From assembly GCF_928381405.1 (NCBI RefSeq), contig NZ_CAKMSB010000004.1, positions 186,001 through 250,000 on the forward strand: a stretch of DNA of 64,000 nt, given 5' to 3'. Below, one piece after another: positions 5,577 to 40,817 of the stretch (position 1 is its first letter; every line of letters starts with the position of its first letter). Source of the stretch: Rothia nasisuis. Lineage in GTDB: Bacteria > Actinomycetota > Actinomycetes > Actinomycetales > Micrococcaceae. The notes under the pieces were generated by a model. The model searched no databases, was not told where the DNA came from, and was given only the letters and a program-made list of their open reading frames with translations. Made by a program: the position numbers and the translations under genes.

Positions 5577-5595
5577 CTCACTCCTTAACCATCGT

Positions 5596-5628
5596 ATCGG
5601 GGCCCAGTCATATAGGCTGGGCCCCGAT
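5596..5628 (+). terminator. Rho-independent terminator after the transporter gene
   Basis: Arms ATCGGGGCCCAG (5596-5607) and CTGGGCCCCGAT (5617-5628) form a perfect 12-bp GC-rich stem with a 9-base loop. TTGTATC follows. It separates the inositol transporter from hsdR, which converges from the right. Confidence 0.85.
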
Positions 5629-5695
5629 TGTATCGTATACCCAGGTTTAACCCGCCAGGGGCAGCTATGTCGTAGCCCCTACGGGCATGCAAGAC

Positions 5696-8600
5696 CTATT
5701 CACTCTGCCTCTTACTCTTTTCTTCGGCTATGATTTCCATCTGCTCTAGAACGCGGCGGCGGGCTTCGTCCTGACCTTCCGGCGGATACTTGTGCTTGCG
5801 AAGCAGGCGTTTGACAACCTTGCGCAGTTTGGCACGCTGAGTGGGCTGAGAGAGCCAGTCCCGGTGTGAGCCCTGGATAGCTTTTACGATTCCGCGGGCG
5901 ATATCTGCCAGAGCGTCGGCAGAATATTCCAGTTCGGCTCGGTCACAAGCTTCGAGAGCGTCATAAAAAATCATTTCATCGTCGCTGAGGCCCAGCTCCT
6001 TGCTACGCATTGCTTCTTGCTTAAGCTCTTTACCCAGTTCGATGATGTGCTCTATGATTTCAACGAAGCTTAGCTGTGAGTTGTTGTATTTCGTGACGAG
6101 GTCCTGCAGTTTTTCGCCGTAGTAGGCCTGGCGGGTCTGGTTATGCCCGACGGTATCTCGCATTTGTCGCTGCATTGCCTTACGCAAGGCTTCCAGGGCT
6201 AGTGGTTCACTGGAATTCTCGGCTGCCTGTCGGGCGAAGTCTAAGTTGAGCTCACTAAGATCGGGGGCGGGAATTCCTGCGAGCTTGTAGAGGTCTTTCA
6301 CTTCACCGGTTTCAATGAGCCCTTCGGTGTAGTTTTCTAGCAGGCGCTTGATATCTTCGGGTACAGGCAGGCCACGGCTGGCCCGGTCTTCGGCTAGGTT
6401 CTTGGCTGCGGCTACACGTACTTCTTCGAAGAACTGTACATAGACCGTTTTCTGTTTAAGTTCTTTGACTTTGTCGTTCTCATGGGTAGAAGCAACAAAG
6501 TTGTACAGCCTGGTGACTTGGGAACTGCGTTCTACAAACTTGCTGTAGATACTCTTCTCTGTTTTTTGGGGACGGCGTGATGCTCCGTCAATAGAGTCCG
6601 AATCCTTAACGATGGGCTCGGTTACCTGGCGGTTGCTGAGCAGGAACCCCATAACCATGCGCAGGGCTGCAATACGGTCTGCTGGGCTAGGGCAATGGCT
6701 ACCCTCACCGAGAATTTTCTCTTTCCAGCCCTGGACAGGTTGTAGCAGGTATTCAATTTCGGTGATGAGATTGAGAGCGTTTTCCGCAGCGGTTTGCATA
6801 TCGTGCTCACCAGGTGCACCTACAGTATGGCTACTCGCATAGATGCCAAGGGCCTCACGCAAATTATCGATAATGGGCGCGTAACCAACGAGCAGGGCTT
6901 CCTGTTTTTCTTTGTAGGTTCGGTTGACGCGGGCAAGGGCCTGCATGAGCAGGGCGCCCTTGAGAGGGCGGTCAAGGTACATGGTGTGGAGCGCTGGCGC
7001 ATCAAACCCTGTGAGAAGCATTGACTGCACGATGATGAGCTCGAGCGGGTCATTGGGATTCTTCAGACGGGCCTGGAGCGTCTTTGACGCCTGGCCGTTG
7101 CGGGCGAACCGGGCAATATCCTCTTCATCTGAGGCGGATCCGGTGTAGAGCACCTGGATCTTTCCGTCGTTAATACCGCTTCCTGCCCAGTCCGGGCGAA
7201 GGGCAATGATGTGATCGTACAGGTCAGCGCAAACCTGCCTGGTCACGCCGACGATCATGCCTTTACCGGGTACTCCGATGAGCTGTTTCATGGAGCTACT
7301 GCGGATTTCCCAGTGTTCTACAAGGTCTGCAGCTAGTTTCTTGAGGCGGTTTGGTGAACCGTACATGGTGTTCATACGGAGCACAGCCTGTTCGGTCTTC
7401 CTGCGCTCTGCTTCGTCGAGCTCTTCAGTCATGCGCTCAGCAACATCGTTGATGTTTTCGATGGTTTCGCCGTCTGGCAGTTCCAGGGGAATGTAACGGG
7501 ACTCGTATTTGACGGGTACGGTGGCACCGTCTTTGACCGCGCGGGTGAGGTCGTAGATATCGATGTAGTCGCCAAAGACTGCTTGGGTGTTGGTTTCTAG
7601 CTTTTCGATGGGGGTGCCGGTGAAGGCGATGAAGCTGGCCTTAGGTAGCGCGTCGCGGATGTTGCGGGCAAAACCGTCGAGATTGTCGTAGTGGGAGCGG
7701 TGTGCTTCGTCCACCATGATGATGATGTTTGAGCGGTCTGAGAGCATCTGGTGGCTGAGACCGGCGTCTTTTTCGTCTTTGGTTTTGGCGAATTTTTGAA
7801 GGGTGGTGAAGTAGATGCCACCCTGCTGGCGCCCCTGTAGTTCGCTGCGAAGCTCAGCGATACTCTCAATTTCATAGGGGGTTTCCGGCAGGAAATCTAG
7901 GGTGGATGAGAAGGTGTTAAAGAGCTGGTCGTCAAGGTCGGTGCGGTCAGTGACGACGATGGTGGTGGGGTTGTTGAGGTGTTGGTTGCGCATGACGATA
8001 TTGTCGTAGAAGACCATTTCGAGGGATTTACCTGAGCCCTGGGTGTGCCAGACAACGCCGATTTGGCGGTTTCCGGTGACTGCTCGCATGGTTTCGGTGA
8101 CAGCGCGGCTTACGGCGAAATATTGGTGGGGCTTGGCGATGATTTTGGTGGTTTGGACGCCGCCCTGTTCATTGGGAACGCTGGTGAACACAATGTAGTT
8201 GTTGAGCAGGTCAAGGAAGCGTTCTTGGTTGGCAACGCCGAAGAGGAGAGCTTCGAGGGCAGTTTGGGATTCGTAGTCTGAGGGGTCTGGTGCTTCTGCG
8301 GTGAAGTCGATGAGTTCGCCGTCGTCGTCCACGTTCCAGACGGACATGTGGGTGTAGGGGGTGAAGGGGGTTCCGTAGCGGGCGGTGATGCCGTCGCTGA
8401 TGATGGTAAGGACGTTGTAGCGGAAGGCTAGGGGGAAGTCGCGCATGTACTGGTTGATTTGGTTGTGGGCACCCCGGAGGTCTGCGTTGGGGTCGCCTGC
8501 GCGTTTGAGTTCGATGATGCCGACGGGCAGACCGTTGCAGTAGAGCACGATGTCGAAGCGGCGTTCTTTGTCGAGGGTTTTGAGGGTGACTTGTTGGACG

Positions 8601-9016
8601 GCGAGCCAGCGGTTTTCGTCGGGATTGCGGCTGATGATGCGTACAGTGGGGTTGTATTCGCTGCCATCGTGGCGTTTGATGGTGAGGCCCTTGTAACCCT
8701 TGGTGATGTATTTGTGGGCTTCACGGTTTTCGGCTTTGGGGTCCACAGATGCGGCGGTAAGGACGCTTTCGGCGACGGTTCGTATGTCTTCTGGGGTGAG
8801 TTCGGGGTTGAGGCGGGCGATGGCTTCGCGGAGCATACCGGGGATTTCGAGGGTGTCGTTTTTCTCGCGGAGGTGCTCGTAGGGGAGCTTGCCGTTGATG
8901 TCGTCCTCGCCTCTGGCGTTAGGGGCGATTTGTGTGCCGTGGAGGGGTTGCCAGCTGAGTTCGCCGAGGATGTCGAGCGCGAAGCTTTCCCATTCTGATT
9001 CGTCGATGAATGCCAT
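5696..9016 (-). CDS. hsdR: Type I restriction enzyme, R subunit (HsdR)
   Basis: A 1106-residue restriction and translocation subunit starting at the ATG at 9016 after AAAGGA. An N-terminal PD-(D/E)xK nuclease is seen near residues 155-180 (FDIVLYCNGLPVGIIELK). The SF2 motor follows: Walker A HTQGSGKS near 325, DEAH in MVDEAHRS near 435, TGTP near 467 and motif VI QALARVNRTY near 695. The C-terminal helical region would dock on the methylase. With HsdM and HsdS it cleaves unmodified DNA after ATP-driven translocation. It is on the same strand as hsdM and hsdS but 6.8 kb away, with four accessory genes between. The frame is intact with all motifs present, so activity is expected. A palindromic operator candidate lies 160 bp upstream. 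Confidence 0.95.
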   Translation of the reverse strand: MAFIDESEWESFALDILGELSWQPLHGTQIAPNARGEDDINGKLPYEHLREKNDTLEIPGMLREAIARLNPELTPEDIRTVAESVLTAASVDPKAENREAHKYITKGYKGLTIKRHDGSEYNPTVRIISRNPDENRWLAVQQVTLKTLDKERRFDIVLYCNGLPVGIIELKRAGDPNADLRGAHNQINQYMRDFPLAFRYNVLTIISDGITARYGTPFTPYTHMSVWNVDDDGELIDFTAEAPDPSDYESQTALEALLFGVANQERFLDLLNNYIVFTSVPNEQGGVQTTKIIAKPHQYFAVSRAVTETMRAVTGNRQIGVVWHTQGSGKSLEMVFYDNIVMRNQHLNNPTTIVVTDRTDLDDQLFNTFSSTLDFLPETPYEIESIAELRSELQGRQQGGIYFTTLQKFAKTKDEKDAGLSHQMLSDRSNIIIMVDEAHRSHYDNLDGFARNIRDALPKASFIAFTGTPIEKLETNTQAVFGDYIDIYDLTRAVKDGATVPVKYESRYIPLELPDGETIENINDVAERMTEELDEAERRKTEQAVLRMNTMYGSPNRLKKLAADLVEHWEIRSSSMKQLIGVPGKGMIVGVTRQVCADLYDHIIALRPDWAGSGINDGKIQVLYTGSASDEEDIARFARNGQASKTLQARLKNPNDPLELIIVQSMLLTGFDAPALHTMYLDRPLKGALLMQALARVNRTYKEKQEALLVGYAPIIDNLREALGIYASSHTVGAPGEHDMQTAAENALNLITEIEYLLQPVQGWKEKILGEGSHCPSPADRIAALRMVMGFLLSNRQVTEPIVKDSDSIDGASRRPQKTEKSIYSKFVERSSQVTRLYNFVASTHENDKVKELKQKTVYVQFFEEVRVAAAKNLAEDRASRGLPVPEDIKRLLENYTEGLIETGEVKDLYKLAGIPAPDLSELNLDFARQAAENSSEPLALEALRKAMQRQMRDTVGHNQTRQAYYGEKLQDLVTKYNNSQLSFVEIIEHIIELGKELKQEAMRSKELGLSDDEMIFYDALEACDRAELEYSADALADIARGIVKAIQGSHRDWLSQPTQRAKLRKVVKRLLRKHKYPPEGQDEARRRVLEQMEIIAEEKSKRQSE

Positions 9017-9175
9017 GGTTCTGTTCCTTTGCTAGGGGGTGTCTTATCTGTTCCTAGCTTATGCAAGGGGAAATCATTGGGAGAAGTATGACAGTGATAA
9101 CGGGGCGTATCAGATGCTCCCTTGATGTTTGGGCGGGCACCCGCTGCACCCCCTCCAGCAGCAATAAACTGAAAA

Positions 9176-9225
9176 ATTGTACAGTGACTGTACAATCTTT
9201 TGCACACTCACTGTACAATCTTTTG
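9176..9225. promoter_or_regulatory. Perfect palindrome plus third half-site between hsdR and the ImmA/IrrE gene
   Basis: ATTGTACAGT (9176-9185) and ACTGTACAAT (9187-9196) are perfect mirror arms around one G. A third copy of the right arm, as ACTGTACAATCTTTTG, recurs at 9210 exactly 23 bp after its first occurrence at 9187. The rest of 9017-9518 shows no convincing gene. The site lies between two divergent transcription units and is a strong operator candidate; the helix-turn-helix-type regulator encoded just downstream could bind it. Confidence 0.6.
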
Positions 9226-9518
9226 GGCTTCCAACCGCTTGCCAAGGAGCGTGTTCTGAACTCTCAGTCGTGCCCTGTGCGAGGTATTCATCGCGCTATG
9301 GTTCAGCTAGCGCTGGAACCGTAGGTGGCTTATCTCTATAGAACCGGCACCGGGAACGTGCCATGCTTTTCTTCACTTTTGTGTAGCGCTGGTTTACATC
9401 AATAGATTAAATTTAGAGAGTACAGTCCCCTCATACCGCTAAGAGGTCTAGTCTCAAGCTACCTCGGTCATGCCCATAGGGGGCGTTTTCTGAAGCAGTT
9501 TTTGTGAGGGGGTGCGGT

Positions 9519-10682
9519 GTGAGCGTTCGGGTCCCGGTGAAACCCGCCTTGATTTCTTGGGCCTTGGAACAAGCTAGTGTTGAGCCTGGCGATTTGCGAC
9601 TGGGCGACAAGGTGGCGGGCTGGCTTGAGGGCTCGTTACAGCCAACTTTAAAACAGTTGCAGGATTTTGCGAAGAGCACTCACGTTCCCTTTGGCTACTT
9701 GATGATGAGTGAGCCACCAGTGTTTGAGAAGCCTCTGCCTGATTTTCGCAGGCGTGATGAGCGCAGTAGTCGTTATTCTCAGGAACTGACCGATGAAATT
9801 TACGCACAGCAGCGTAAGCAGGTTTGGTTCCGCGATTATGCGCTCGATCAGGGTCTAGATGTTGTGGATTGGGTTGGTAGTGCCAGCTTAAGTGACGCAC
9901 CTGAGACTGTGGCAATGCGTTTGCGTGAGCAGTGGAGTTTTTCTACTGCTAGCAGAGCACAGGGCTATGTTGAGTCTCGTAAGGAGGTTTTTTCTTTCCT
10001 TGAGAATCAGGATGTTCTTGTAAGTGTTGCTGGCTATTTTGGCTCTACCCGTAGACCTTTTGATACCAAAGAGTTCAGTGGCTTTTCTCTTTCGGACGAG
10101 TACGCTCCGCTTATTTTTGTGAATGGCAAAGAGTCTCATGCTGCCCAGGTTTTCACGATGTTCCATGAAGTGGGGCATTTAGTGCTAGGTGAGTCTGGTG
10201 TGTCTGGTGTGTCTGGTGTGTCTGATGATGCTGAAGAGAGCGGAAGCTCGAATCGTTCTGAGCGTTGGTGTGATGAGTTTGCGGCGGCCTTTCTCATGCC
10301 AGTAGGTGAGGTGCGCAGGTTTGCTCCGCGCTCCTTGAGTGAGGATGCGGTGTTGCCTGTGGCAAAGCGTTTTAGGGTGAGTGCGTTGGCTTTGCTGAAT
10401 CGGCTTCGGGATTTGAAGCTAATCTCTTTTGAGCAGTGGTCTGTTGCTTACCCTGAGTTTGAGGCTCAGGCTTTGGAGGTTCTGCGGCAGAAGACCGAGA
10501 AGGGGTCTTCTGGTGGCGAGTTTTATAAGTCGCATCCCTTTGTAGTGGGGCCGCGTTTTGCGCGGGCAGTGTACCGTGAGGCTCGTAGCGGTAGGATGTC
10601 GTATCCTGATGCTCAGCGTTTGTTGGGGGTTAGGCAGACTGAGACTTTTGAGCGTTTCGCGCGTGAGGTTGGTGCTTGGTGA
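9519..10682 (+). CDS. ImmA/IrrE-family metallopeptidase regulator (antitoxin-like partner of DUF4411)
   Basis: A 387-residue protein. The chosen start is the GTG at 9519, six bases after GAGGGGG and giving MSVRVPVKPALISWA; an earlier in-frame GTG at 9504 has no ribosome site. The N-terminal ~70 residues resemble an Xre-like helix-turn-helix. The core carries the zinc peptidase motif HEVGH near residue 215 and CDEFAAAFLMP near 250, hallmarks of ImmA/IrrE, which cleave repressors. Three 9-bp repeats insert a Gly-Val-Ser tract next to the active site. It overlaps the next gene as TGATG, so the two are translationally coupled. Such ImmA/IrrE plus DUF4411 pairs are classed as type II toxin-antitoxin-like modules. 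It runs opposite to the flanking restriction genes. Confidence 0.85.
   Translation: MSVRVPVKPALISWALEQASVEPGDLRLGDKVAGWLEGSLQPTLKQLQDFAKSTHVPFGYLMMSEPPVFEKPLPDFRRRDERSSRYSQELTDEIYAQQRKQVWFRDYALDQGLDVVDWVGSASLSDAPETVAMRLREQWSFSTASRAQGYVESRKEVFSFLENQDVLVSVAGYFGSTRRPFDTKEFSGFSLSDEYAPLIFVNGKESHAAQVFTMFHEVGHLVLGESGVSGVSGVSDDAEESGSSNRSERWCDEFAAAFLMPVGEVRRFAPRSLSEDAVLPVAKRFRVSALALLNRLRDLKLISFEQWSVAYPEFEAQALEVLRQKTEKGSSGGEFYKSHPFVVGPRFARAVYREARSGRMSYPDAQRLLGVRQTETFERFAREVGAW
10194..10220 (+). repeat. In-frame 9-bp tandem repeat inside the ImmA/IrrE gene
   Basis: Three exact copies of TCTGGTGTG (10194-10202, 10203-10211, 10212-10220) encode Gly-Val-Ser units immediately after the HEVGHLVLGE active-site helix. 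Slippage in whole units would keep the frame and change only the loop length. Confidence 0.85.
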
Positions 10683-11158
10683 TGTTCCTGGTAGATACCA
10701 ATATTTTGGTTGAGGCATACCGCCGCTACTATGCTTTTGACCTTGTGCCGAGCTTCTGGGAGTTCCTAGATCGGAATTTTGACGCTGGGAGCCTGGTAAG
10801 TATTAAACCTGTGCTGGATGAGCTCAAGGAGGGCAACGATGCTCTGACTGAGTGGGCAAAGAACAGATCTCATTTCTTCAGGGATATTGCTGATGCTACA
10901 ACCATTCAGGCGATGGGTGAGATTGCGGATTGGGTAAAGCAGCAAGGTTATTGGCAGTCAGCGGTAGATGAGTTTTTGGGAATTGCTGATTACTTTCTAG
11001 TGGCCTATGCTGCAGCGCATGGTTTGACTGTATTGACTCATGAACTGCCGCGCCCTGAGTCTAAGAAGCGCGTTCTGATTCCAGATGTTTGCCGTGCTTT
11101 CGGCGTGGATTACGTTGATACATTCACGATGATGCGTGCGTTAGGAGCCCGATTCTAA
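10682..11158 (+). CDS. DUF4411 family protein (PIN-like putative toxin)
   Basis: A 158-residue protein whose ATG at 10682 overlaps the preceding TGA. An in-frame TTG at 10676 is less likely. The N-terminus MFLVDTNILVEAYRRYY with FWEFLDR matches DUF4411, a PIN-related fold in which early Asp and later acidic residues (DELKEGND, DEFLGIADYFLVAYA, THE) form a metal-dependent RNase site. The sequence supports the family. RNase toxicity neutralised by the upstream ImmA/IrrE partner is known or proposed for such pairs and is inferred here. A long hairpin follows the gene, which closes a two-gene operon. Confidence 0.8.
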   Translation: MFLVDTNILVEAYRRYYAFDLVPSFWEFLDRNFDAGSLVSIKPVLDELKEGNDALTEWAKNRSHFFRDIADATTIQAMGEIADWVKQQGYWQSAVDEFLGIADYFLVAYAAAHGLTVLTHELPRPESKKRVLIPDVCRAFGVDYVDTFTMMRALGARF

Positions 11159-11173
11159 CTCTTCAAACAGGTA

Positions 11174-11220
11174 GCCGCTACTTCATTTGTTTCAAAAAAT
11201 ACAACAGATGAAGTAGCGGC
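11174..11220 (+). terminator. Long stem-loop ending the ImmA-DUF4411 operon
   Basis: Arms at 11174-11191 and 11203-11220 (starting GCCGCTACTTCA and ending TGAAGTAGCGGC) pair over 18 positions with one wobble. Bases CTCATCCTTTT follow. The stem could also stop leftward transcription from the 554-residue membrane protein gene at 11291. Confidence 0.75.
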
Positions 11221-11290
11221 CTCATCCTTTTAGTCTAACGAAATATAGAATCACTGCGTAACTAATGGATTGCCCCCGTATAGATAAGCT

Positions 11291-12955
11291 CTACTTACCA
11301 CTAATGGCTCCAGATATTTTCTCTTTAACGCTCTTTCGGTGCATGCCGCTAATCGCGTTCACAGTACGTTTGACTTCACGGATACGAAGGTAAGTCATTA
11401 AAATGTCAAGCTCGGTTCGTACGATAAACGAACGAGTTTCTGCTCGTACTTTCTGCATCGATTGGACAGAGTCAAAGTAAGAATTTCTAAAATTTTCTGT
11501 TGCACTGCCTATCTTTTTTTCAGCATTTCCCGGTATTTCAAATTGCTCAGAAAACTTTGAGTAACCGTCAATAAACTGGTATTGATCTAGGTAGCCAAAT
11601 AGTAGATTGCGTTTCAGTAAGAATTTTCTGACAACCGTTGCCTCTGTCTTATTATGAATCTCTTCGAAAATCTGATCTATCGAATCGAGAATTTTAAGCA
11701 ACTCATCTATATGAGAAATCTCTCCAGTTCGATAGAAGAAACCGGGATTATTAAATTTATAAATGCCCGCAACAGTAATCACTTCATGACTTTCAGAAAT
11801 ATTCTCAAGGTATGCATAATATACGTCATTCAAATGTCTTGACAGATTTGACTCGTAGTGCTCAATCCAGATATCTAATAAATTGGAATATCCAGTATAG
11901 AGATCAGAAATTTTCTCTACAGCCTTTTCATAATTGTAGCTTCTAAAAATCGGAGAAATTTGCTCAACTCGTAAGTAGGCAAAATATATACCTACGACCA
12001 GCAAGGTTCCAGTGACAATACTTGCCCAGGAATCCCATTCTGAGAACTGAATTTTTAAGATTTTGTCTGAGATAAACCGTTCAGCTGATTCTTGCTGAGA
12101 TTCGGGGATAACGAACCAAAGGCCCCATCCTGTGAGGATAACCCCGATAGCTACATTCACTTTGGTGAATACTGCATTCAGGTAGAAATATGTTCCTGAT
12201 AAAGATGTAGCTCCAAACACCCTAAGAATTTTTCTAACTTTAGCTTTATTAGCCACTTTTGCATCTAGTGCAGCTGAAATCTTTTCGAAGTCATCACCAT
12301 GCATAATTTTATTCAAATGCTTACGGTGCCACTTGTGAATAGCATCCCTGACGGTAAGGTAACCAGCATGTTCTTGCGCACCACAGACACATAGAAGTGC
12401 TGTTGATAATAAGACCAGAGTTAATACAGTGGTTAAAAACAGTGCGAAACAGGTTACCGTCCAAGCGAACCATTCAGGAGCCTCGTTTTTACTAAGAGAG
12501 TGAAAGATATTTTCTTTGGTCAACTGAGCGTACGTAGGGACTAGCTGCATCGGCTTATCGAAAGCACCAAGAATACTCAGAGCTGAGTACAGATACCCCA
12601 GGTAGGCTACAGAATTGATTTTCCCTGTCTCCACATAGATGCTCAGTTTTTTAGCTACAACTAACGTCAAGAAAAAAACTATACAGAAGAAAAAGGATAA
12701 AGTTGAAAGAGTAAGGATCTTTCCAGCAATAAGATACGACCCAAAGTATCCTGCAGCGGACATAAAACTGAGTATTTTTACCCAGCGATAATTCCATTCT
12801 AAGTTTATTTCCTGCTCTTCCTGTTTCAGCTCATTTTTACAGATTTCATTAGCCTGCCGTTCAACAGTCTTTGCTTTGATATAAAGCTTTGCTGAAACGA
12901 TTAACAGAATAATGAATAGGACCCATAGCCCTATCTTTATAAAAGTTTCCATCAT
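11291..12955 (-). CDS. Multi-pass membrane protein of unknown function in a defence island
   Basis: A 554-residue protein I do not recognise. It has an N-terminal hydrophobic helix (residues 6-22) and further hydrophobic stretches around 60-80, 82-102, 115-135, 165-190, 265-285 and 310-328. A soluble, charged, helix-rich C-terminal half of about 220 residues follows, ending in basic residues. No peptidase, nuclease or nucleotide-binding motif is visible. Two adjacent ATGs open the gene and the ribosome site (AAGAAAG) is weak. Its DNA is clearly more AT-rich than the inositol and siderophore regions. It runs in the same direction as the nuclease-like gene 363 bp upstream, with no terminator seen between them. 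A role as a membrane effector of an anti-phage system is an inference from location and topology. Confidence 0.6.
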   Translation of the reverse strand: MMETFIKIGLWVLFIILLIVSAKLYIKAKTVERQANEICKNELKQEEQEINLEWNYRWVKILSFMSAAGYFGSYLIAGKILTLSTLSFFFCIVFFLTLVVAKKLSIYVETGKINSVAYLGYLYSALSILGAFDKPMQLVPTYAQLTKENIFHSLSKNEAPEWFAWTVTCFALFLTTVLTLVLLSTALLCVCGAQEHAGYLTVRDAIHKWHRKHLNKIMHGDDFEKISAALDAKVANKAKVRKILRVFGATSLSGTYFYLNAVFTKVNVAIGVILTGWGLWFVIPESQQESAERFISDKILKIQFSEWDSWASIVTGTLLVVGIYFAYLRVEQISPIFRSYNYEKAVEKISDLYTGYSNLLDIWIEHYESNLSRHLNDVYYAYLENISESHEVITVAGIYKFNNPGFFYRTGEISHIDELLKILDSIDQIFEEIHNKTEATVVRKFLLKRNLLFGYLDQYQFIDGYSKFSEQFEIPGNAEKKIGSATENFRNSYFDSVQSMQKVRAETRSFIVRTELDILMTYLRIREVKRTVNAISGMHRKSVKEKISGAISGK

Positions 12956-13318
12956 GGCTTCTTTCTTAGCGGTAGTTGAGGGAAGTGGTGAGCTCCCCTC
13001 TGAGGGGTATCGAGGATTCTGTAGTTTTCTGGTCGTTCTTCTTTATTTGTGCAGTCGGATGCTTGGTCTAGGTTCTTACGAGGTAACGCGAAGTTCAGGG
13101 GGTGAAACGGAGAGCCGGTTTTTAGAGAGATAGAGCGCTTCACCAGACACAAAGGAGGACTTAGATTACAAAGCTACTGGCACGAATCGCCTTATACCTG
13201 AATCAAATCAGGTGAGAGGGGCGGCAGCGATCACGAGACTGGGGGCCTAGGACAAAAACACTTTTGAAATCTAGCCTTTCACCATTTACGCAAATAATTG
13301 CATACACTAAATCTTGAA
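12956..13318. other. Gene-free spacer between the two AT-rich genes
   Basis: No convincing coding region was found. It holds a small inverted repeat ACCTGA-ATCAAA-TCAGGT (13195-13212) and an AAAGGAGG at 13151 on the plus strand that is not followed by a start codon. It probably contains the promoter for the leftward membrane-protein gene. Confidence 0.4.
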
Positions 13319-15712
13319 TTACCGCTTTCTCCTCTTTTTCTTTTTTGCAGCAGGTGGAGAGCATCTAGGAATCACGCTAAGCGGGACGCACCCTCGCCGT
13401 CTCGCCTCACGGTCTAATTCTGGATTTTCTTGATAAGGATATTCCAGCAGTAAGGTCTCAACAACTTTTAGATTGGGATCAAGCAATATTCCAAAAGCAG
13501 ACCTAACTCTCATCCAATGTTTTTTAATTTCAACATATTCTTTAAAATAATCAAAAAGGTAGCTTCTGGGAATTCCAACCATAAAACAAAATATCACATT
13601 GTGATCATACCCCCACGAGGCAAAACTAAAATCTACTCCGCCACGCCTTTGCATACTTCTAATACTAGCTTCATTTAATTTATTTAGAACATTTCCTTGC
13701 GCCTCAGAGCTTAGACTCCCCAAGGTGGCAGTCAGTCTCAACCAGCCCTCACCTTTGAGGCTCTCAACCTGTTCAATTATTGAAGTCAAAGGTTGGTCAA
13801 TTATTTCTATTTTGGACACCGGATATCTGACAGGATCTTCAGAGTGATACATGAATGAATCCAACTCGCCTGTTAAGGTATGTATAAAAACTTTACTTTG
13901 AGAATTATAAATTCTAATATCTTTCTTTGTTGGAGGAAGCAAAGAATTATCTAATTCATATTTTCTTTGTGGATTAGGATGAAAGAATAAACCTCCATAT
14001 ATAAACCACATCAATAAGTCAAGTTCATCTTGTGCGGTAATAAATTTAACAGCCTCTGCTGATACCCTCGAACGTAAATAACGAATAAAGTGGACTGGGC
14101 GCTGTATTAATTTTGAGAAGACTAAAAGATCCGAAACGCTGACTACCCAGGGTAAGTTTTCATTTTGAATTATTCCGGAATCAACGAGTGTGCTTAGAGT
14201 AGGCGAGATAGAATTTAAATCTTCAAGACAAACCACAATTTGGTGAATTTCTTTTATTTCACTAAAATCGCGCCAGTTCCCATCTTTATCCCAAACACCA
14301 CCGTTATACTTTAACAAATTTTTTAATCGCTGTGCCTGCCTAGAAGCTCCGGCAATAGTTTTTTCCAAGTCGGTAAAAAGTTTATTTTTATCACCTTCAC
14401 GCCCGGGTTCACGAATTCCCCCTGCTTTAATTTCTACACAAATCGCGATTCCGTCAATAACGCACAGCAGATCACATTCTGTAGAGTCGGTTTTTAGATG
14501 ATCTTGCGAATTTTTTGATAAGTCAAATTCATTGTTTTTCCCCGGGTTTTTATATTTAAAAGAAGGATAGAACCTTGCCTCACTACCCAAAATTAATTTA
14601 AACGTATCACAAACAAAATCTTCAAATAGCTTATCTCTAGCTTTGGAATATTTACTCCACTCTTTGAGATCCTTTTTGATCTCAGCCTCAGAAACTTTGA
14701 TTATTTCATCTAGAAGAATCCCCTCAGCTATTAAATACCAAGAGTCTTCATCAATTCTAAGAATATTTTTTCTTCGCAACGGATTAAATCCATCAACGTA
14801 TTTTTGCAGGACCTCTTCGCTTGTTAGCTCTGTTCTTCCTACGGAAAATATGGACAGAATTCTCCGCACCGTATCTACACTTAGATGAGATAGCATGGAT
14901 ATTTCTTGTGAACTAAATTCGTGATATTCAGAAGGAGAATTTGGAAAAGCGGAACTAAAAGCCTTTTCTGCCCTAATTTTCTCTTCAGAGCTCAAATCAA
15001 CGGCTGAAAAATTATCACTAATTTCTCGAATTTCATTCAAAGAATCAAAAGTTGTCTTGAGCTTTCTATAAGTAGCTTCATGCGCCGCTTCCCTCACTAA
15101 GAGAACATCATTATACGTAAAACCAAAAATTTTTTTCCAGTATTTTTGAATACTAAATTTATTTATGATTGCTTCATTGATTTCACTGGATATCGATTGA
15201 TACTGACGTCCACGCACAGAAGCTTCATGAGACTTCAACGATTCAGAAATTTTATTCTTTGAATCACTGTCTCTAGCCATTGATTCAAATGCATTAAAAT
15301 AAGATTCTTGGATTACTTCATACAAAGCAATCCTAAGTCTATCAATATCAAGTTCCCCACCCTGACAATTCGCATCAGAATCAGAGACTAAGCTCAGCAA
15401 AGCTAACACATCCCATATCGCAATAGAGAATTGGGGAGGAGTATCGCTTTCTCGGGTATCTATAATATTTTGCTGAATTTGGATGATGCTAAGAGCATCT
15501 AAAGCATCGCTCGCACCCAAGAAGGAATATATTTCTTTTACAAAATCCTTTTTCTTCTCCAAGGGATAGTATTGGATTTCCTTATCTGATTTTACATCCT
15601 CGATATGTGCAATCATTTCTGTCATATACGAAATATGCATCTGGCTTTCGGAGACAATTAGAAATTTATTTCCATCGACGTCTTCGTACTCTAATTTATA
15701 ATAATTTTCCAT
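13319..15712 (-). CDS. Large protein with putative PD-(D/E)xK nuclease domain
   Basis: A 797-residue protein from the ATG at 15712, preceded by AGGGGTGA. The frame is open to a TTG at 15814 that overlaps hsdS by 8 bp but lacks a ribosome site. I do not recognise the full-length family. A restriction-endonuclease-like core is suggested by a helix with EDFVCDTF near residue 363, then ECDLLCVIDGIAICVEIKAGG near 408-430: an Asp, a hydrophobic strand and E-x-K. N-terminal residues are helical and acidic; the last ten are nearly all Lys/Arg. The DNA is very AT-rich (22 and 12 G+C in the 60-base lines at 14641 and 15121), unlike its surroundings, which points to acquisition by transfer. It follows hsdS on the same strand and may be co-transcribed with the restriction genes. 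Confidence 0.6.
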   Translation of the reverse strand: MENYYKLEYEDVDGNKFLIVSESQMHISYMTEMIAHIEDVKSDKEIQYYPLEKKKDFVKEIYSFLGASDALDALSIIQIQQNIIDTRESDTPPQFSIAIWDVLALLSLVSDSDANCQGGELDIDRLRIALYEVIQESYFNAFESMARDSDSKNKISESLKSHEASVRGRQYQSISSEINEAIINKFSIQKYWKKIFGFTYNDVLLVREAAHEATYRKLKTTFDSLNEIREISDNFSAVDLSSEEKIRAEKAFSSAFPNSPSEYHEFSSQEISMLSHLSVDTVRRILSIFSVGRTELTSEEVLQKYVDGFNPLRRKNILRIDEDSWYLIAEGILLDEIIKVSEAEIKKDLKEWSKYSKARDKLFEDFVCDTFKLILGSEARFYPSFKYKNPGKNNEFDLSKNSQDHLKTDSTECDLLCVIDGIAICVEIKAGGIREPGREGDKNKLFTDLEKTIAGASRQAQRLKNLLKYNGGVWDKDGNWRDFSEIKEIHQIVVCLEDLNSISPTLSTLVDSGIIQNENLPWVVSVSDLLVFSKLIQRPVHFIRYLRSRVSAEAVKFITAQDELDLLMWFIYGGLFFHPNPQRKYELDNSLLPPTKKDIRIYNSQSKVFIHTLTGELDSFMYHSEDPVRYPVSKIEIIDQPLTSIIEQVESLKGEGWLRLTATLGSLSSEAQGNVLNKLNEASIRSMQRRGGVDFSFASWGYDHNVIFCFMVGIPRSYLFDYFKEYVEIKKHWMRVRSAFGILLDPNLKVVETLLLEYPYQENPELDREARRRGCVPLSVIPRCSPPAAKKKKRRKR

Positions 15713-15806
15713 TTGATTATATTCACCCCTGGTAATATTTAAATAGGTGCGCAATGAAAAAGATTGTAGACTGAACAGCTTATCAGAAAATTGAGACAGC
15801 CCTCTA

Positions 15807-16904
15807 TTATTCAATAAGTTTTCGAATTAACAAATCACGAGTTTCTGACAAAGCGAGATTTTCTTGAGTCAAGCTAAGAATATCTTTTTCAATGTCCTCA
15901 AACTCCTCAAAATTATCTACGACTGGGATCTGAAGGTTTTGTACCTGCTTGCGGTTAATTGAGCTAAATACTGTACCTTCACCCTCATACGGAGACCAAA
16001 GACCAGGTATGTTCTTCAGCAGATAGAACAGCTGGGCAGTATTGCCGTTCTTAGCTCGAATAGCAGCAACACCACGACCCACGCAGCACTCTTCGTCAGT
16101 ACGGTTTAAGTCTCCGACAGGAGCTCGAACACTCAGCAAGATATCTCCTGGCTCCGCGACGCGAGTCGGAGCAGAAGTAAACACACGCGGAGTCGGATAG
16201 CGAAACCCAAAATCACGACGACCCTGATAAAAAATCAGACCTTCGCTGTCTTCGTTAAGAGTTGTGCCGGCTGGTGACTGCCCCATCACGATTTCAGCAA
16301 CCTCAGATAGTTGGCAGGTCTCAGAAACATCATTTTTTTTCTGAAGGATTAAGGCATTGCCCAACCCATCCAGAGAATTCAGCAAAGCATTATTCGCCTC
16401 AATCTTGTCGTCCAAAGACCCCAAAATCTCAGCCACACGTCGCTGCTCTGAAAGTGGTGGAAGGTTACCGATGTCTAGCTTAGGGATATCCTTGACATTC
16501 AAATGTGCAACAGTTGAGCCCTCAGACCAAACCTGCATCAGCCGTTGCATTCGCGGGGATATTAGCTTGTAATGCAGATATCTTGGAACACACAATTTCT
16601 TATTCACTTTGAGCAGCACGGTGCGTTGTCCCAATGCAACCCTGACGTTTCCTACTAGCCCCACCTGACCGACTGGTGCTTCACGAGCAAGAATTAAATC
16701 ACCCGCTTCTGGCTCTCCCCTCTTAGTCCATTGCAGATAAGTTTCTTGAGAAATTGGTTTAGCTTGGCTGTATAAAATTCTGCCCTCTTTTAGATGAGGG
16801 GTACCAACAGAGTACGCGTAGACTTCTTCTATGGTTTCTGGAGCTGTTTTATGCTCACAGTCAATGATTTTATCTAGAACGTCGCCCAGCTTTGCTGAAG
16901 TCAT
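15807..16904 (-). CDS. hsdS: Type I restriction enzyme, specificity subunit (HsdS)
   Basis: A 365-residue specificity subunit with two target-recognition domains (about residues 1-150 and 195-330). They are separated by the conserved helix LPPLSEQRRVAEILGSLDDK near 150-175, and a second helix at the C-terminus ends DLLIRKLIE. Each domain reads half of a bipartite target; the helices act as a spacer and dock HsdM. The protein is slightly short for the family but complete. Its ATG at 16904 lies 2 bp after the hsdM stop, so translation is coupled. Base composition shifts from GC-rich to AT-rich along this gene, as expected when recognition domains are exchanged. The target sequence cannot be read from the protein alone. 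Confidence 0.93.
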   Translation of the reverse strand: MTSAKLGDVLDKIIDCEHKTAPETIEEVYAYSVGTPHLKEGRILYSQAKPISQETYLQWTKRGEPEAGDLILAREAPVGQVGLVGNVRVALGQRTVLLKVNKKLCVPRYLHYKLISPRMQRLMQVWSEGSTVAHLNVKDIPKLDIGNLPPLSEQRRVAEILGSLDDKIEANNALLNSLDGLGNALILQKKNDVSETCQLSEVAEIVMGQSPAGTTLNEDSEGLIFYQGRRDFGFRYPTPRVFTSAPTRVAEPGDILLSVRAPVGDLNRTDEECCVGRGVAAIRAKNGNTAQLFYLLKNIPGLWSPYEGEGTVFSSINRKQVQNLQIPVVDNFEEFEDIEKDILSLTQENLALSETRDLLIRKLIE

Positions 16905-16906: not shown

Positions 16907-18616
16907 CTACTTCACCTCGTTCTCTGCAGCCTCAGCTGCGGCGTCCTGCCCCACTTCATCGTCCTCGCTATCAGTTGGAACCGGCGGCAAATCCAAACTC
17001 GCCAGATTCTTCTGCACCACCTCAGCAAGACGCTGGGACTCCGCAAACTGCACACTCAGCTTCTCACGCAAACGAGCAATATGAACCTCCACCGGCTCGC
17101 CGTCCTCAACTACAGCCGCAGAACCCACAAAACGTCCCGGAGTCAAAGCCCAGTCTTCATCCTCAACATCCTTCACAGATACAGACCTGGTGAAACCAGC
17201 AACATCCTCGTACTCACCCGTATTCAGCTCCGAATCAGTACCGCGCCAGCGATGCCAGGTGCCCGCAATCTTCGCAACGTCCTCATCAGAAAATACCCGA
17301 GTCGTCCGGTCAACCATATGGCCCATATCGCGGGCATCAATCATCAAAATCTCGCCCTTGCGGTCATTCTTACCGCGCTTACCAGCACCCTTATCCTTGG
17401 CAAGAACCCACACGCACACCGGAATCGCAGTACCCAAGAAGAGGTTGGCAGGCAGGGCAATCATCGCCGCCACAGCATCCCCCCGCACCATCTCCTCACG
17501 AATAGTGTTCTCACCACCCGTATTAGAGCTCATTGAGCCGTTCGCCAGCACCACAGCCGCAGTACCGCCAGCATTCAACTTGCTCCAAATATGCTGCAAC
17601 CAGGCATAATTCGCATTACGCACCGGCGGAACACCAAAATTCCAGCGCGGATCATCAGTACGACGATCCCAGTCCTTCGAGTTAAAAGGCGGGTTAGCCA
17701 GCACATAGTCAAAATTCGTGCCCGCATGCTTATCCTCGGTGAAGGTATCAGCCCAACGATCACCCAAATCACCAAAAATACCGTGAATCGCAAGATTCAA
17801 ACGCGCAAGGCGCCAGGTTTGGTCATTAAGCTCCTGACCATAAACCATCAGCGCAGGCTCATAGCCCTTCTCCTGCTTAAAGTAGGCACCGTGCTGCTCC
17901 ACAAACTTCTCAGACTGCACAAACATGCCACCTGAACCACAGCAGGGGTCGTAGAGCTTGCCATCCACCGGCTCCAAAATATCAACCAGCGTTCGCACCA
18001 CAGACCTCGGAGTATAAAACTCGCCACCACGCTGGCCCTGCTTGGCCGCAAACTTCCCCAAGAAGTACTCGTAAACTTCACCCAACACGTCCTGAGAAGA
18101 ACGGCCAGTCTGCTCACGAATACCCTTAAAGTCAGCGTTCGAGAACAAATCAATCAGCCCAGCAAGACGGCGCTGATCCACATTCTCCTTGTTATAAATC
18201 TCGCTCAGCGCACCACGCAAACGATCATTCTGCTCCATAATCTCCCGCATGGCCGCATCCAGCACCTCACCAATACTGTCAGTCTTAGCAAAGTTAGTGA
18301 TGTAACCCCAGCGAGCCTTCTCAGGCACAAAATAGACACCCTCACTATAGAAAGAATCAGGATCCTGGAGGGAAACCTCTAGCTCTTCGTCGAGCTCTTC
18401 CCCCTCATAACCTTCATCGATCAGCTCCTGCTTAATCTGCTGTGCACACGCATCAAAACTATCACTCACATACTTAAGGAAAATCAGGCCCAGCACAAAG
18501 TTCATGTAGTCCGCCGCGTTCATCGAACCACGCAACTTATCGGCGGCAGCCCACATCATATCGCGCAGTTCCTCAGGGGTAGAGGCAGAGGACTTATCCT
18601 TCTTCACAGTAGCCAT
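16907..18616 (-). CDS. hsdM: Type I restriction-modification, N6-adenine methylase subunit (HsdM)
   Basis: A 569-residue methylase starting at the ATG at 18616 after AAAGGTGA. The N-terminal helical HsdM domain (about 15-160) precedes the SAM-dependent domain. Motif I DPCCGSGGMF lies near residue 225 and catalytic motif IV NPPF near 308 (DYVLANPPFNSKDW). GGEFYTPRSVVRTLVDI, just before motif I, is typical of HsdM. It methylates adenine in the HsdS target to protect host DNA. It is the first gene of the hsdM-hsdS pair and appears to have its own promoter with an inverted repeat at 18690. Motifs are intact, unlike those of the upstream 708-residue protein. Confidence 0.95.
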   Translation of the reverse strand: MATVKKDKSSASTPEELRDMMWAAADKLRGSMNAADYMNFVLGLIFLKYVSDSFDACAQQIKQELIDEGYEGEELDEELEVSLQDPDSFYSEGVYFVPEKARWGYITNFAKTDSIGEVLDAAMREIMEQNDRLRGALSEIYNKENVDQRRLAGLIDLFSNADFKGIREQTGRSSQDVLGEVYEYFLGKFAAKQGQRGGEFYTPRSVVRTLVDILEPVDGKLYDPCCGSGGMFVQSEKFVEQHGAYFKQEKGYEPALMVYGQELNDQTWRLARLNLAIHGIFGDLGDRWADTFTEDKHAGTNFDYVLANPPFNSKDWDRRTDDPRWNFGVPPVRNANYAWLQHIWSKLNAGGTAAVVLANGSMSSNTGGENTIREEMVRGDAVAAMIALPANLFLGTAIPVCVWVLAKDKGAGKRGKNDRKGEILMIDARDMGHMVDRTTRVFSDEDVAKIAGTWHRWRGTDSELNTGEYEDVAGFTRSVSVKDVEDEDWALTPGRFVGSAAVVEDGEPVEVHIARLREKLSVQFAESQRLAEVVQKNLASLDLPPVPTDSEDDEVGQDAAAEAAENEVK

Positions 18617-18719: not shown

Positions 18720-20846
18720 TTATGAAAACCTGATTGAGCCCTCAGCCAAGCCCCCCAGGGTATCTTTCTCAAGAGACTCCAGAGCCAGCAACTGCTCCCG
18801 CAAAAACAGCTTCTGCTCTCGCACCTTCTTCAACTGCTGGTCCAACCGATCCACCTGCTCATTAGATACATCGCTCAACACAGCATTCAGTAGCTCGCCC
18901 GAAATACGAGCCCTCTGCCAGCTCACCTTTGACGACCCATCTCGCGCCTGAGCATCAAGCGCAGCCTGCACTAAACCAGCAAAAACCTCCAACCGAAAAT
19001 CAGGCTGAACCCTACCAGGCAAGTTCCGCCTCACAATAAAGACCGGAGACTTAGCCACCATCAGACCACCACGAACCGCAAAAACAGCCGGTTGCGGGCC
19101 CTCGCACACCAAAAGATCACCATCCCGTGCAATCTCCAGATTCAGCACATCCATTGCGCTCAAAGCATCATACTCAGCAGGTAAAACGCCCACCTGGCGA
19201 TAATGCTCCATAGCCTCAACATCAACAACCCGCACAGTACCCTCACCAGAAGAACCCACAGCAAGCTCAGCCAGCTTCTGCGCAGTCATACCAGCAACAC
19301 GGCGCAGCTGACCGTCCTCACGAGCGCCCCCAAGCGTCCTCGTCGAGGAGCCAGAAACAGAATCTACCCGCCAGTCCAAAGAAAACGACGGGTACACAGC
19401 GCTATTAACACGCTCAACATCCCGCTCAATCCCCGATACCGCATCTGGAATACTAGACACCCGTGAAGACAACTCCACCGCACCATCAAAACCCAACTCT
19501 TTAACATCCGGCCACGGCACACGAAGTCCGCTCACCATACGGTGCTCACCAGAGGAACTATAAACTACTGCCTGCCGACTCTCATACGCCAAAGACTCAA
19601 TATCATGTAAAGCCTGCTCCTGGGCTTCACGATAAAAAACGTCAAGCTTCTCAGAAAGATTTATCAAAGCAACCAGAGGGTTCTTCTCAGAACCCGATCT
19701 TCTACGATTCTCAAACACACCCAGCATAAGGCGAGCGCCAGACTCCGTCACCAGCTGCTTCTGGCCACAACTCACCAAAGCCAACAGATGGCCAGCCTCA
19801 AGCACAGACTGCCGAGGCGAATTGTCCCCAGCTACAAAGGCGGACCCAAGCACCTCCGCCCTGCCCAACACCACAACAGGCACTCCCAGAGGAGCATCAA
19901 AAAGCAGGTCCTCAATATCAGACCACTGCTGCACATCATCAACCGCAGACTTCGCAAGAGGCAGCACCACAACAATCAAGGCAGGCTCCCAGGCGCGCCT
20001 ACCGCTCTCGGGCACCAGCAGAAGTTCCTCATCTGCCAAAAAGCCCAGAACCTTAGCGAAATCACTATCACCGGCTACCCCTGCACTGGTGAGCTGTAGG
20101 CCCCGCCGAGCGTCCTGAGTGAGCGCCGTAGTCTGCGCCACCTGCACCATCAAAGCCGAATCAGTACCAGACGCAAAGTGCAGCCGCACATCACCAGAAA
20201 AACGCGCACTGATACTCCGCAGGAACCCACCCAGATCATCAGAAATCTGCTCGCCCAGCTTCTGCCGCCCCATCACCAAAGAAGAAAAAAGCTGCACACC
20301 GCCCAGCACATCATCAGAGAAACGAGCTAGTGCATAGGCAGGGCACAACAAGAGAGCTAAATCTGCCGGAGTAACCTTCAAAATAAAAGGCTCTAAGTTC
20401 CCTACCATGTCAGGCGAAGCAGCCGCATAACGCCGCAACAGGGCGACAGGGCGCTCCCCCGGAGTAGGGTCCACCACCCGAAAAACCAGCACCAAGGTCA
20501 TCAATGACTGAATAAGGTGCCTAAGCGCAACATTCTTCTCAAGCGCCGGAGCAACGCTACCCTCAACGGCCGCCTGCACCAGCATTTCTTCGAAAGTTCG
20601 CTTTGCCCGCAGGCGGCTCGAAGCCCACACAGCAAAATCAAAAGCATCATAGAGTGTCTCGCGGGAGGCAAGGCTCTGCTCTACCGCACGCGGGAAACCA
20701 GTACCACCATGCCGTGAAGCCCACGTAGCAATCACAGGGCGCTTCACACCAGCAACACGGGCAGCCTGCGAAGCATTCAGCCTCAACCCTGAAAAAAGAG
20801 AACGAAGCTGCTCCATATCATGCTGCTCAACAGTGCTAGACGTCAT
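18720..20846 (-). CDS. Methylase-like protein lacking catalytic motifs, with N-terminal HTH and HsdS-like C-terminus
   Basis: A 708-residue protein from the ATG at 20846. The N-terminus (LNASQAARVAGVKRPVIATW, then GTGFPRAVEQS) looks like the DNA-binding domain that precedes actinobacterial N6-DNA methylases. The C-terminus resembles their recognition end: GDLLVCEGPQPAVFAVRGG near residue 580, then a coiled coil (DQQLKKVREQKLFLREQLLA) and GLAEGSI. Between them the expected SAM motif DPxCGSG and NPP(Y/F) are absent; LHFASGTDSALMV and IVVVLPLAK sit in the corresponding places. It is upstream of hsdM on the same strand. A TAGAAT hexamer exactly 6 bases before the ATG suggests a leaderless mRNA. 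Likely roles (inference) are a DNA-binding accessory or regulator of the restriction locus, or a target-marking scaffold. Confidence 0.6.
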   Translation of the reverse strand: MTSSTVEQHDMEQLRSLFSGLRLNASQAARVAGVKRPVIATWASRHGGTGFPRAVEQSLASRETLYDAFDFAVWASSRLRAKRTFEEMLVQAAVEGSVAPALEKNVALRHLIQSLMTLVLVFRVVDPTPGERPVALLRRYAAASPDMVGNLEPFILKVTPADLALLLCPAYALARFSDDVLGGVQLFSSLVMGRQKLGEQISDDLGGFLRSISARFSGDVRLHFASGTDSALMVQVAQTTALTQDARRGLQLTSAGVAGDSDFAKVLGFLADEELLLVPESGRRAWEPALIVVVLPLAKSAVDDVQQWSDIEDLLFDAPLGVPVVVLGRAEVLGSAFVAGDNSPRQSVLEAGHLLALVSCGQKQLVTESGARLMLGVFENRRRSGSEKNPLVALINLSEKLDVFYREAQEQALHDIESLAYESRQAVVYSSSGEHRMVSGLRVPWPDVKELGFDGAVELSSRVSSIPDAVSGIERDVERVNSAVYPSFSLDWRVDSVSGSSTRTLGGAREDGQLRRVAGMTAQKLAELAVGSSGEGTVRVVDVEAMEHYRQVGVLPAEYDALSAMDVLNLEIARDGDLLVCEGPQPAVFAVRGGLMVAKSPVFIVRRNLPGRVQPDFRLEVFAGLVQAALDAQARDGSSKVSWQRARISGELLNAVLSDVSNEQVDRLDQQLKKVREQKLFLREQLLALESLEKDTLGGLAEGSIRFS

Positions 20847-39413: not shown

Positions 39414-40817
39414 TTAGGCGGTCTCGGAGGTTGCCCCGTCCCACAGGGAGGCTGGCACTTTGGCAGTAAGGGCAAGGCTGAAACACCAAAGGGTAAGTAG
39501 CAGGAGGCTCACCAGCCACACCCCGGTCGTACTGGGCAGGTGGTGCCAGGTGATTACTACGCTCACCAGCACCACACCCCAGGCGCTCAGTATCGTTTTG
39601 ATCATCATGAAGAGCGTGGTGCTTTCGTCCATGGAGTCTGGGGGTATATCGAGAAAGGCAGCGGCTTGGGCGATGAGCACCGGCTGGCTTAGGAAGAGGC
39701 TAAAACAGAACATCGCTAGGGCAAACACCAGGCCAGGGTGGGGTAGGTGGGCAATAATTACGGTGATGAGTGCCGCACCTACATAACCCAAAATCATAAG
39801 TTTGCGGGTGCCTAGAAACTTCTTTAAGGGAATCATGAGCTGCCCGCCAACGAGCAATCCCAGAGTTTCGGGGAACATCATCAGGCCGATTGTCTGCGTA
39901 TCTATCCCACGCGCTGCGAGAAGAACCGGAACAAAAAATAAGAAGCCGGTCAGAGCTGCAAAACTGATACCCACCGATACCGTGGCAGAGCGGAACATCC
40001 TAGAGGTGAAAGCGCCAACCGCCAGCGCCGGGTACGGGCGCTTTTGCGCGCGTTTCCAGCTGTAGAACATCAGGGCTCCCGCGAGGAGGGTGAGCACAGT
40101 GAGCGCCAGGTAGGTCAGAGGGGAGCTTGCTCTGCTGGTAGCGTTCGCAATTGCTACCGGTAACAGGGCGAGACCCACCGTTGATATAAGGACGAGAACG
40201 AGACCCACCCTGTCAATCTTAAGAGCCGTAGCGGTCTGGTCTGGGGCCTCTGGTTTCATGCAGAAACAGGCCGCCAGAAATACCCCCATGCTGAAAGCGG
40301 CAAGAAGGGTGAAGATAGAGCGCCAGCCCATGTGTTGGGCCATAATCCCACCAAGAACCGGCCCAAGCATAGGGGCTATAGTAAGCGGGATGAGGGTCAG
40401 ACGAGAAATTCTCAGGCGGTCAGCACCCGTGGCGTTTCGATACATCATGGCAAGCCCCACGGGCACAAGTACACCCGAACTCACACCCTGGATAATCCGC
40501 CCTGCAAGAAGCATCCAGACGCTGTTAGCTATTCCTGATAGGAGCAGCCCTATGCCGAGCCCGGCGAGGAAGATACGAAAAACTCGGGCGGCACCCAGCC
40601 TAGCTCCCAACCATCCAGCAAGGGGAAGGACGGCTGCGGAAGCGATGAGAAAGGCCCACTCTACTCCGCTCAAATCAGCAGGGGTGACCTTGAAGGTTGC
40701 TGCCATCAGCGGGAGCACCGGTACGACCACGGTGCCGTCAAACCCGTTGATAGACATGGCACAGAGATAGATGATGATATGTGTCAGGGGGATGTTAGCG
40801 CCCTGGTGCTGCTTCAT
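39414..40817 (-). CDS. MFS exporter, probable siderophore efflux pump
   Basis: A 467-residue major facilitator with about 14 membrane helices, DHA2-like: INGFDGTVVVPVLPLMAATF in helix 1, GARLGAARVFRIFLAG in loop 2-3, and LIPLTIAPMLGPVLGGIMAQHMGWRSIF (helix 5 motif C). The ATG at 40817 lies 23 bp inside the end of the NRPS gene, so it is translationally coupled to it. The likely job is secretion of the finished catechol siderophore, comparable to EntS. Export of another drug-like compound cannot be excluded from sequence. Confidence 0.85.
   Translation of the reverse strand: MKQHQGANIPLTHIIIYLCAMSINGFDGTVVVPVLPLMAATFKVTPADLSGVEWAFLIASAAVLPLAGWLGARLGAARVFRIFLAGLGIGLLLSGIANSVWMLLAGRIIQGVSSGVLVPVGLAMMYRNATGADRLRISRLTLIPLTIAPMLGPVLGGIMAQHMGWRSIFTLLAAFSMGVFLAACFCMKPEAPDQTATALKIDRVGLVLVLISTVGLALLPVAIANATSRASSPLTYLALTVLTLLAGALMFYSWKRAQKRPYPALAVGAFTSRMFRSATVSVGISFAALTGFLFFVPVLLAARGIDTQTIGLMMFPETLGLLVGGQLMIPLKKFLGTRKLMILGYVGAALITVIIAHLPHPGLVFALAMFCFSLFLSQPVLIAQAAAFLDIPPDSMDESTTLFMMIKTILSAWGVVLVSVVITWHHLPSTTGVWLVSLLLLTLWCFSLALTAKVPASLWDGATSETA

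Follow-up and report, generated by a model that had tools for sequence, protein, structure and literature searches.

The window, by which we mean the whole 64,000-nucleotide stretch of Rothia nasisuis DNA analysed here, contains a type I restriction-modification locus, in which a gene for a 797-residue predicted protein, designated NUC, follows hsdS on the same strand. The features of the locus are collected in Table 1. The sequence-only reading had described an AT-rich protein of this length directly after hsdS, and its ORF, strand, length and start were right: the ORF translation gives 797 codons on the minus strand from an ATG at 15712, which is located 94 bp downstream of the hsdS stop. 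An in-frame TTG at 15814, upstream of this ATG, overlaps the hsdS stop. The NUC gene has a G+C content of 36.6%, whereas the window has 55.7% and the hsdM and hsdR genes have 53.2% and 55.2%, respectively. NUC is present as a single copy in its own genome. A promoter-like match lies within the 94-bp gap between hsdS and NUC, while the promoter and terminator scans of 10900-16100 as a whole were at chance level. No family assignment for NUC was obtained from Pfam, NCBIfam or PADLOC: PADLOC gave zero matches at E ≤ 1, and the sole Pfam row was a sub-threshold RelA domain (E = 0.056). Elsewhere in the 64-kb window, an ORF of 2387 aa is located at 40795-47958, and no tRNA genes were found.

Table 1. 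Features of the hsd locus in the window and predicted parts of NUC
Feature	Position	Strand	Basis
hsdR	5696..9016	-	SWI2_SNF2 2.4e-74, HSDR_N 3.7e-32
M78/IrrE-type protease gene, conserved backbone	9504..10682	+	Peptidase_M78 3.2e-15; kept in L125-L127
DUF4411/PIN gene, conserved backbone	10676..11158	+	DUF4411 4.1e-52; 3' end borders slot
Variable cargo slot, 38.1% G+C, 4648 bp	11159..15806		between PIN gene and hsdS; blastn and slot comparison
554-aa predicted membrane protein, second cargo gene	11291..12955	-	membrane nature judged from sequence
NUC, 797-aa predicted sensor-nuclease	13319..15712	-	translation, homologues
C-terminal region, residues 500-797	13322..14215	-	alignments; separate model
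Predicted PD-(D/E)xK core, residues 349-500	14213..14668	-	AF2 secondary structure, invariant columns, VIA-align matches
Q459	14336-14338	-	core residue
K429	14426-14428	-	K of E-x-K
E427	14432-14434	-	E of E-x-K
D414	14471-14473	-	core residue
E412	14477-14479	-	core residue
E364	14621-14623	-	core residue
Possible winged-helix-like segment, residues ~255-330	14723..14950	-	secondary structure and weak structural matches
N-terminal all-helical region, residues 24-254	14951..15643	-	AF2 secondary structure
AGGGGTG ribosome-binding-like site	15724..15730	-	sequence, ahead of ATG 15712
hsdS	15807..16904	-	Methylase_S 3.8e-19
hsdM	16907..18616	-	N6_Mtase 9.2e-99

The same hsd locus was found in three genomes of the same genus (loci L125-L127), with HsdR proteins 96-97% identical. 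The backbone, i.e., hsdR, the M78/PIN pair, part of hsdS, hsdM and the portion of the upstream gene that was compared, is 88-95% identical at the DNA level. The M78 protease gene (an RmrA-like PADLOC match) and the DUF4411/PIN gene form a pair at 9504-11158 that is conserved on the opposite strand in all four hsd loci. On the other hand, DNA comparison revealed that the segment from the PIN stop to the hsdS stop is replaced in the three relatives. In the window, this segment holds NUC and the 554-aa predicted membrane protein. The corresponding slot of genome G027 (2615 bp, 39.3% G+C) holds a 478-aa PDC-M36A-like protein (2.6e-25) and a 209-aa protein, that of G002 (3455 bp, 38.8% G+C) holds a DUF6119 protein and an ApeA-like protein, and that of G005 (4569 bp, 38.0% G+C) holds SIR2 (3.1e-113), HerA (2.2e-200) and an ApeA-like protein. 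The two ApeA-like proteins matched ApeA_NTD1 of Pfam at 2.3e-16 and 9.9e-13, but at E 0.01 PADLOC had no model for either of them. ApeA itself belongs to the defence genes that have been tested. In G005 the slot is filled by an established defence system, SIR2-HerA, which is listed among the anti-phage systems in PMC10952713. Because the slots of the three relatives hold other AT-rich cargo, the slot occupied by NUC is a swappable one. In all four slots, the first cargo gene has the same direction as hsdS and either lies at most 94 bp from its stop or overlaps it.

By blastn, the similarity between the window and G027 slots consists only of a 226-bp piece beside the PIN gene. Of the membrane protein encoded in the window, the last 35 residues survive in G027 as a remnant (77% identical), and therefore the two slots share ancestry at the PIN-side edge. 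Between the G002 and G005 slots, blastn aligned only one stretch, at 66% identity, whose coordinates are those of the ApeA-like gene. The two halves of hsdS are also exchanged among these loci: the 3' half of the window gene (15807-16424) matches L127, and the 5' half (from about 16370 on) matches L125 and L126, which suggests, from the sequence comparison, swapping of the target domains. The interval that separates hsdR from the M78/PIN pair is also variable: in L126 (9841-12285) it holds a RES-domain protein with others, and in L127 (4944-5840) an AbiEi-like gene. Upstream of hsdM, a 708-aa protein with no family match (18720-20846), possibly a regulator, is kept in L125, L127 and, over the portion covered, L126.

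Early scans with peptide patterns found no homologues of NUC. A whole-genome search gave matches in five of 149 relatives, in ten out of 396 genomes from the order and in eight out of 396 from the phylum. These three sets overlap, and the genome of the window is included in every count. Within the genus Rothia, compared with 34 other genomes (G001-G034), NUC was found only in the window's genome. The plasmid collection contained matches in 18 records, the phage collection contained none, and pattern scans of viral contigs were likewise negative. A profile-guided scan of genome contigs yielded 85 relatives, and the best 80 of the 85, which were kept, are all from Actinomycetota by their record titles. 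The ORFs in the homologous loci were called with our own scripts. Further plasmid matches were obtained from Exiguobacterium and from Halobaculum, a genus of archaea, whose matches are limited to the core and its surroundings (21-23% of the query). A profile of ten distant proteins (A5; L024 left out), four from plasmids of Salimicrobium, Lactococcus, Acuticoccus and Mycolicibacterium and six from genomes belonging to the same order or phylum as the window, could be aligned with the profile of the NUC family (probability 100, E = 6.3e-61); the 615 aligned columns cover most of the length of NUC. When seven members of A5 were compared with Pfam, two (L015 and L016) passed the cut-off for NERD and one (L030) matched SEC-C. 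We rejected SEC-C/PDC-S12/E2 as family evidence, since the PADLOC matches of L029 and L030 are confined to the last ~35 residues. The Streptomyces plasmid homologues L009, L010 and L011 carry the annotation 'preprotein translocase subunit SecA', for which there is no support in the alignment. In the tree, NUC is on a branch of 1.67 with Knoellia sinensis L035 as the nearest row (~30% identity, support 89); because of this long branch and the unusual composition, its position is unsure. The median G+C content of the NUC-family genes in 87 loci is 62.1%, and the AT-rich window copy is therefore atypical of its family.

The sequence-only reading had also proposed a nuclease-like block with E near 363, D near 410 and E-x-K near 427. 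These residues were recovered as E364, E412/D414 and E427-x-K429, and together with Q459 they are invariant in 64/64 rows of alignment A2, which consists of the window protein and 63 of the 80 genome loci. The other 17 loci (L045, L058, L059, L062, L063, L067, L071, L073, L075, L078, L081, L082, L086, L092, L096, L109 and L110) were left out of A2 because they were near-duplicates, truncated or split copies, or sequences made too long by the choice of ORF. Because just 23 of the 797 positions are invariant in A2, the landing of the motif residues on invariant columns is far beyond chance. A wider alignment of 90 rows, representing the window and 86 loci (two of which contribute only pieces) at ~20-34% identity, includes all 80 genome loci and the plasmid loci L007-L012, and excludes the distant L013-L016 as well as L002-L006 and L017-L030, some of which duplicate included loci. 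In this alignment, E364, E412, D414, E427 and K429 are identical in all 87 rows that cover the site, so that the close homologues do keep the Asp and the E-x-K, and Q459 is kept in 86 of the 87, with S in one row. The three non-covering rows are pieces of the NUC gene copies of L086 and L110, which are split, probably by frameshifts. All ten remote relatives of A5 retain the residues that correspond to D414, K429 and Q459; E364 is retained in nine (D in one), E412 in eight (D in two) and E427 in seven. The other three (L016, L028 and L029) have QxK in place of E-x-K; a Q-x-K active site is described for Mrr in an excerpt of PMC12707154.

The AlphaFold2 model of NUC has a mean pLDDT of 86.7 and a pTM of 0.89. 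The core of the model runs through a helix at 349-375 with E364, strands at 380-388, 410-419 (E412 and D414) and 422-429 (E427 and K429), a helix at 442-470 with Q459, and a strand at 488-495. This helix-strand-strand-strand-helix-strand order over 349-495 is that of the PD-(D/E)xK fold, so the restriction-endonuclease fold, whose absence would have spoken against the earlier proposal, is present in the predicted model. The all-helical N-terminal region is a putative sensor or dimer part. The weak winged-helix matches in VIA-align (IclR-type, RPC62, TFE and others; Z 5.0-6.1) start at ~171-199, ahead of the segment at ~255-330. In the C-terminal region, D562-E563-L564-D565, Y726 and K730 are invariant and a basic tail is present; modelled separately (pLDDT 86.9), this region matched the PDB at best with a Z of 5.7 (phosphopentomutase, 4lr7), which is background and does not imply a new fold.

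A Foldseek comparison of the full-length model, as the sequence-only reading had suggested, found nothing in the PDB at E 0.001 or better. The two leading rows by E-value were Wolbachia CidB chains (probability 0.30-0.35), followed by VC1899, Can2 and Cdn1. The fold search of BFVD was likewise negative at this E-value limit, and sequence searches of the PDB gave one chance row with NUC alone and only chance-level rows with profile A2. In VIA-align, run on the candidates from Foldseek, the core was matched best by nucleases of restriction and defence systems, with Nt.BspD6I at the top (Z 9.4, rmsd 4.5, 187 aligned), then R.BspD6I2 (Z 9.0), FokI (Z 8.4, but rmsd 11.2), Cdn1 (8.4), Can2 (8.3), McrC (7.1), SduA (6.9), Card1 (6.6) and NucC (6.0). 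The matches to nucleases span NUC residues ~171-573. Since Z values of about 9 exceed the stated background of the tool by only a little, the fold call rests on the motif and on the consistent identity of the matches. These results strongly support the prediction, from sequence and model, that NUC is a nuclease with PD-(D/E)xK chemistry.

The neighbourhoods of the homologues were analysed by tblastn with the window proteins, up to 10 kb on each side. Homologues of HsdM or HsdR were found near only one of the 80 genome loci (L074), and near two of 90 when ten plasmid loci were added (L014); at least 4 kb were available on both sides at 68 of 87 loci, and divergent hsd genes could escape this search. 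The type I link of NUC is thus local, and these counts give no support to a conserved association. The nearest-neighbour proteins (set A3, 142 of 149 after seven longer than 1000 aa were dropped; nine redundant loci had been skipped earlier) fall into 104 Pfam families, of which the commonest is Phage_integrase with seven members. A neighbour cluster common to 17 of the 87 loci is tyrosine-integrase-like, as judged by its sequences. Plasmid, relaxase and TniQ contexts also occur among the homologues.

Defence-type immediate neighbours can be named at nine of the 87 loci, a count of hand-picked neighbours rather than a controlled survey, and generic models are present in PADLOC. At L012, HmaA precedes the homologue and a DUF1156 gene follows it, and one HmaB member fits this locus. 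At L034, a type IIG restriction-methylation gene of 1650 aa (4578-9530) overlaps the start of the homologue by 4 bp, an arrangement of sequence that suggests co-translation of the two. The neighbour at L099 is a type III methyltransferase, and PDC-S28 helicases are the neighbours at L057 (on the other strand) and L101. A TIR protein was found at L056, a KAP/PifA-like NTPase at L060, DitA at L037 and an HTH-Mrr_cat-AAA protein at L038. The tally of neighbours also contains single members of AbiU and Drt3a, and three of ten proteins in one scanned set of neighbours had no PADLOC match.

From these observations, we consider it reasonably probable that NUC is a sensor-nuclease complete in one polypeptide, and that it forms part of the swappable defence cargo in the slot behind hsdS of a type I operon. 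The sequence-only reading had offered two roles, an additional type I effector and a separate anti-phage nuclease. The former was rejected as the main reading, since within the flanks covered HsdM or HsdR homologues lie near only one of the 80 genome loci and the type I locus of three relatives has no NUC. The latter fits better, in view of the swappable slot, the varied defence-type neighbours and the partnerless plasmid homologues, and NUC is probably a swappable anti-virus weapon, as judged from sequence. We infer the defence role from context. A narrower form of coupling, in which the HsdMS(R) complex would hold NUC inactive and release it upon inhibition of the type I enzyme by a phage, in the manner of PrrC, appears quite unlikely. 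NUC does lie within the hsd locus, just behind hsdS on the same strand and with hsdR on the far side, the homologues at L012, L034 and L099 directly follow modification-type genes (HmaA, type IIG and type III methyltransferase, respectively), and prrC embedded in EcoprrI provides a precedent (PMC3874165 and PMC12707154, in excerpt), because of which a type-I-coupled role is conceivable for the window copy. However, the rarity of hsd genes near homologues, the operons lacking NUC in the three relatives, and the lack of any match of NUC to a PrrC-type ATPase or anticodon-nuclease family argue against this mechanism.

The plasmid, relaxase and TniQ contexts, the seven Phage_integrase members among the 142 nearest neighbours and the integrase-looking cluster would be in accord with a competition or maintenance nuclease, which would guard the carrying plasmid or island from competing elements, and not the host from phages. 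We regard this role as unlikely, since the window copy is in a chromosomal-type hsd locus and the slots of the relatives hold phage-defence-type genes. The 554-aa membrane protein might also form a two-gene system with NUC, in which it would sense or execute with NUC as its partner, and the two genes are indeed both AT-rich and share strand and slot. This pairing is highly improbable: the genes are 363 bp apart, and the membrane protein, which has no significant Pfam family, was found across 149 genomes only as itself and the 35-residue remnant, which is in a genome without NUC, and in zero plasmids. Furthermore, four other genomes of the 149 carry NUC homologues without the membrane protein, and the co-occurrence of the two, which the sequence-only reading had suggested for examination, was not seen in this set beyond the window itself.

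As a self-contained sensor-nuclease, NUC would be transcribed together with hsdMS. The N-terminal helical and winged-helix-like part and the conserved C-terminal part would recognise DNA or an infection signal, and would keep the nuclease inactive until the signal arrives. When phage or plasmid DNA invades the cell, DNA would be cut by the NERD-like core with no need for the type I complex; the target may be the DNA of the invader, or all DNA, in which case the infected cell would die. Because the homologues have no fixed partner, the regulation probably resides within the NUC polypeptide, as in Shedu. Several observations weigh against this explanation, namely the Q in the E-x-K of three of the ten remote relatives, the small number of loci with defence-type immediate neighbours, the Foldseek result in the PDB together with Z values close to background, the promoter-like match in the hsdS-NUC gap, and the lack of matches in the phage collection and viral contigs.

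We put forward, tentatively and at somewhat less than even confidence, a broader combined proposal. NUC would represent a new single-gene defence family, composed of a helical/winged-helix-like sensor, a NERD-like nuclease and a conserved C-terminal regulator, which is patchy but broad in Actinomycetota and has remote kin in Firmicutes, Proteobacteria and haloarchaea (the nuclease core), and at the same time the gap after hsdS within the genus would be a dedicated exchange slot that swaps complete accessory defence modules between type I loci. A testable predicted nuclease function is now attached to an unnamed family. The slot also provides a handle for discovery, as related type I loci can be aligned and the position directly after hsdS inspected for candidate defence genes; of its alleles seen here, SIR2-HerA is an established system and the others are little known.

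Among known systems, Shedu offers the best reading, by analogy, of how NUC may work, but the sequence gives no Shedu membership. SduA is likewise a single-gene protein with a variable sensor part and a PD-(D/E)xK core, and its N-terminal clamp binds DNA ends, by which the nuclease is relieved (PMC12904381, in excerpt). The NUC model aligned with SduA 8ps5 over model residues 171-537 (rmsd 4.5, 170 aligned), whereas NUC has no SduA/DUF4263 match in Pfam and none in PADLOC at E ≤ 1, and has an additional conserved C-terminal part of ~300 residues. The proposed mode of NUC would thus be that of a Shedu-type single-gene sensor nuclease with different sensor parts. The NERD nucleases (PF08378) share the layout of the active site, and L015 and L016 are recognised by this family; NUC itself has no NERD match at E ≤ 1, and no kinase or helicase domain was found in it, so that the relation, judged from sequence, is kinship rather than membership. 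NERD nucleases occur in PglW/BREX (PMC12839542), in Mokosh (Mokosh I) and Nhi-like systems (PMC10952713), and beside YprA-like helicases (PMC12458937), according to excerpts of these papers. EcoprrI, with PrrC, resembles the window in having an extra nuclease-type gene within the hsd locus, but the predicted core of NUC is PD-(D/E)xK and not an anticodon nuclease, its partner is not conserved, and no PrrC-type ATPase or anticodon-nuclease domain was matched in Pfam at E ≤ 1. Can2, Card1, Cdn1 and NucC also have a PD-(D/E)xK core (Z 5.8-8.4 against NUC), although, in comparison with Can2 and Card1, NUC has no CARF match in Pfam or PADLOC. Upx gives a long alignment beyond the core (NUC model residues 36-529, Z 9.0, 364 aligned), but the rmsd is 8.0 and NUC has no PADLOC family match; any relation is at most putative. 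In view of the reported NERD nucleases, the type of nuclease is already known, and neither the NUC family nor its stand-alone architecture was found among the open-licence papers listed by the literature searches.
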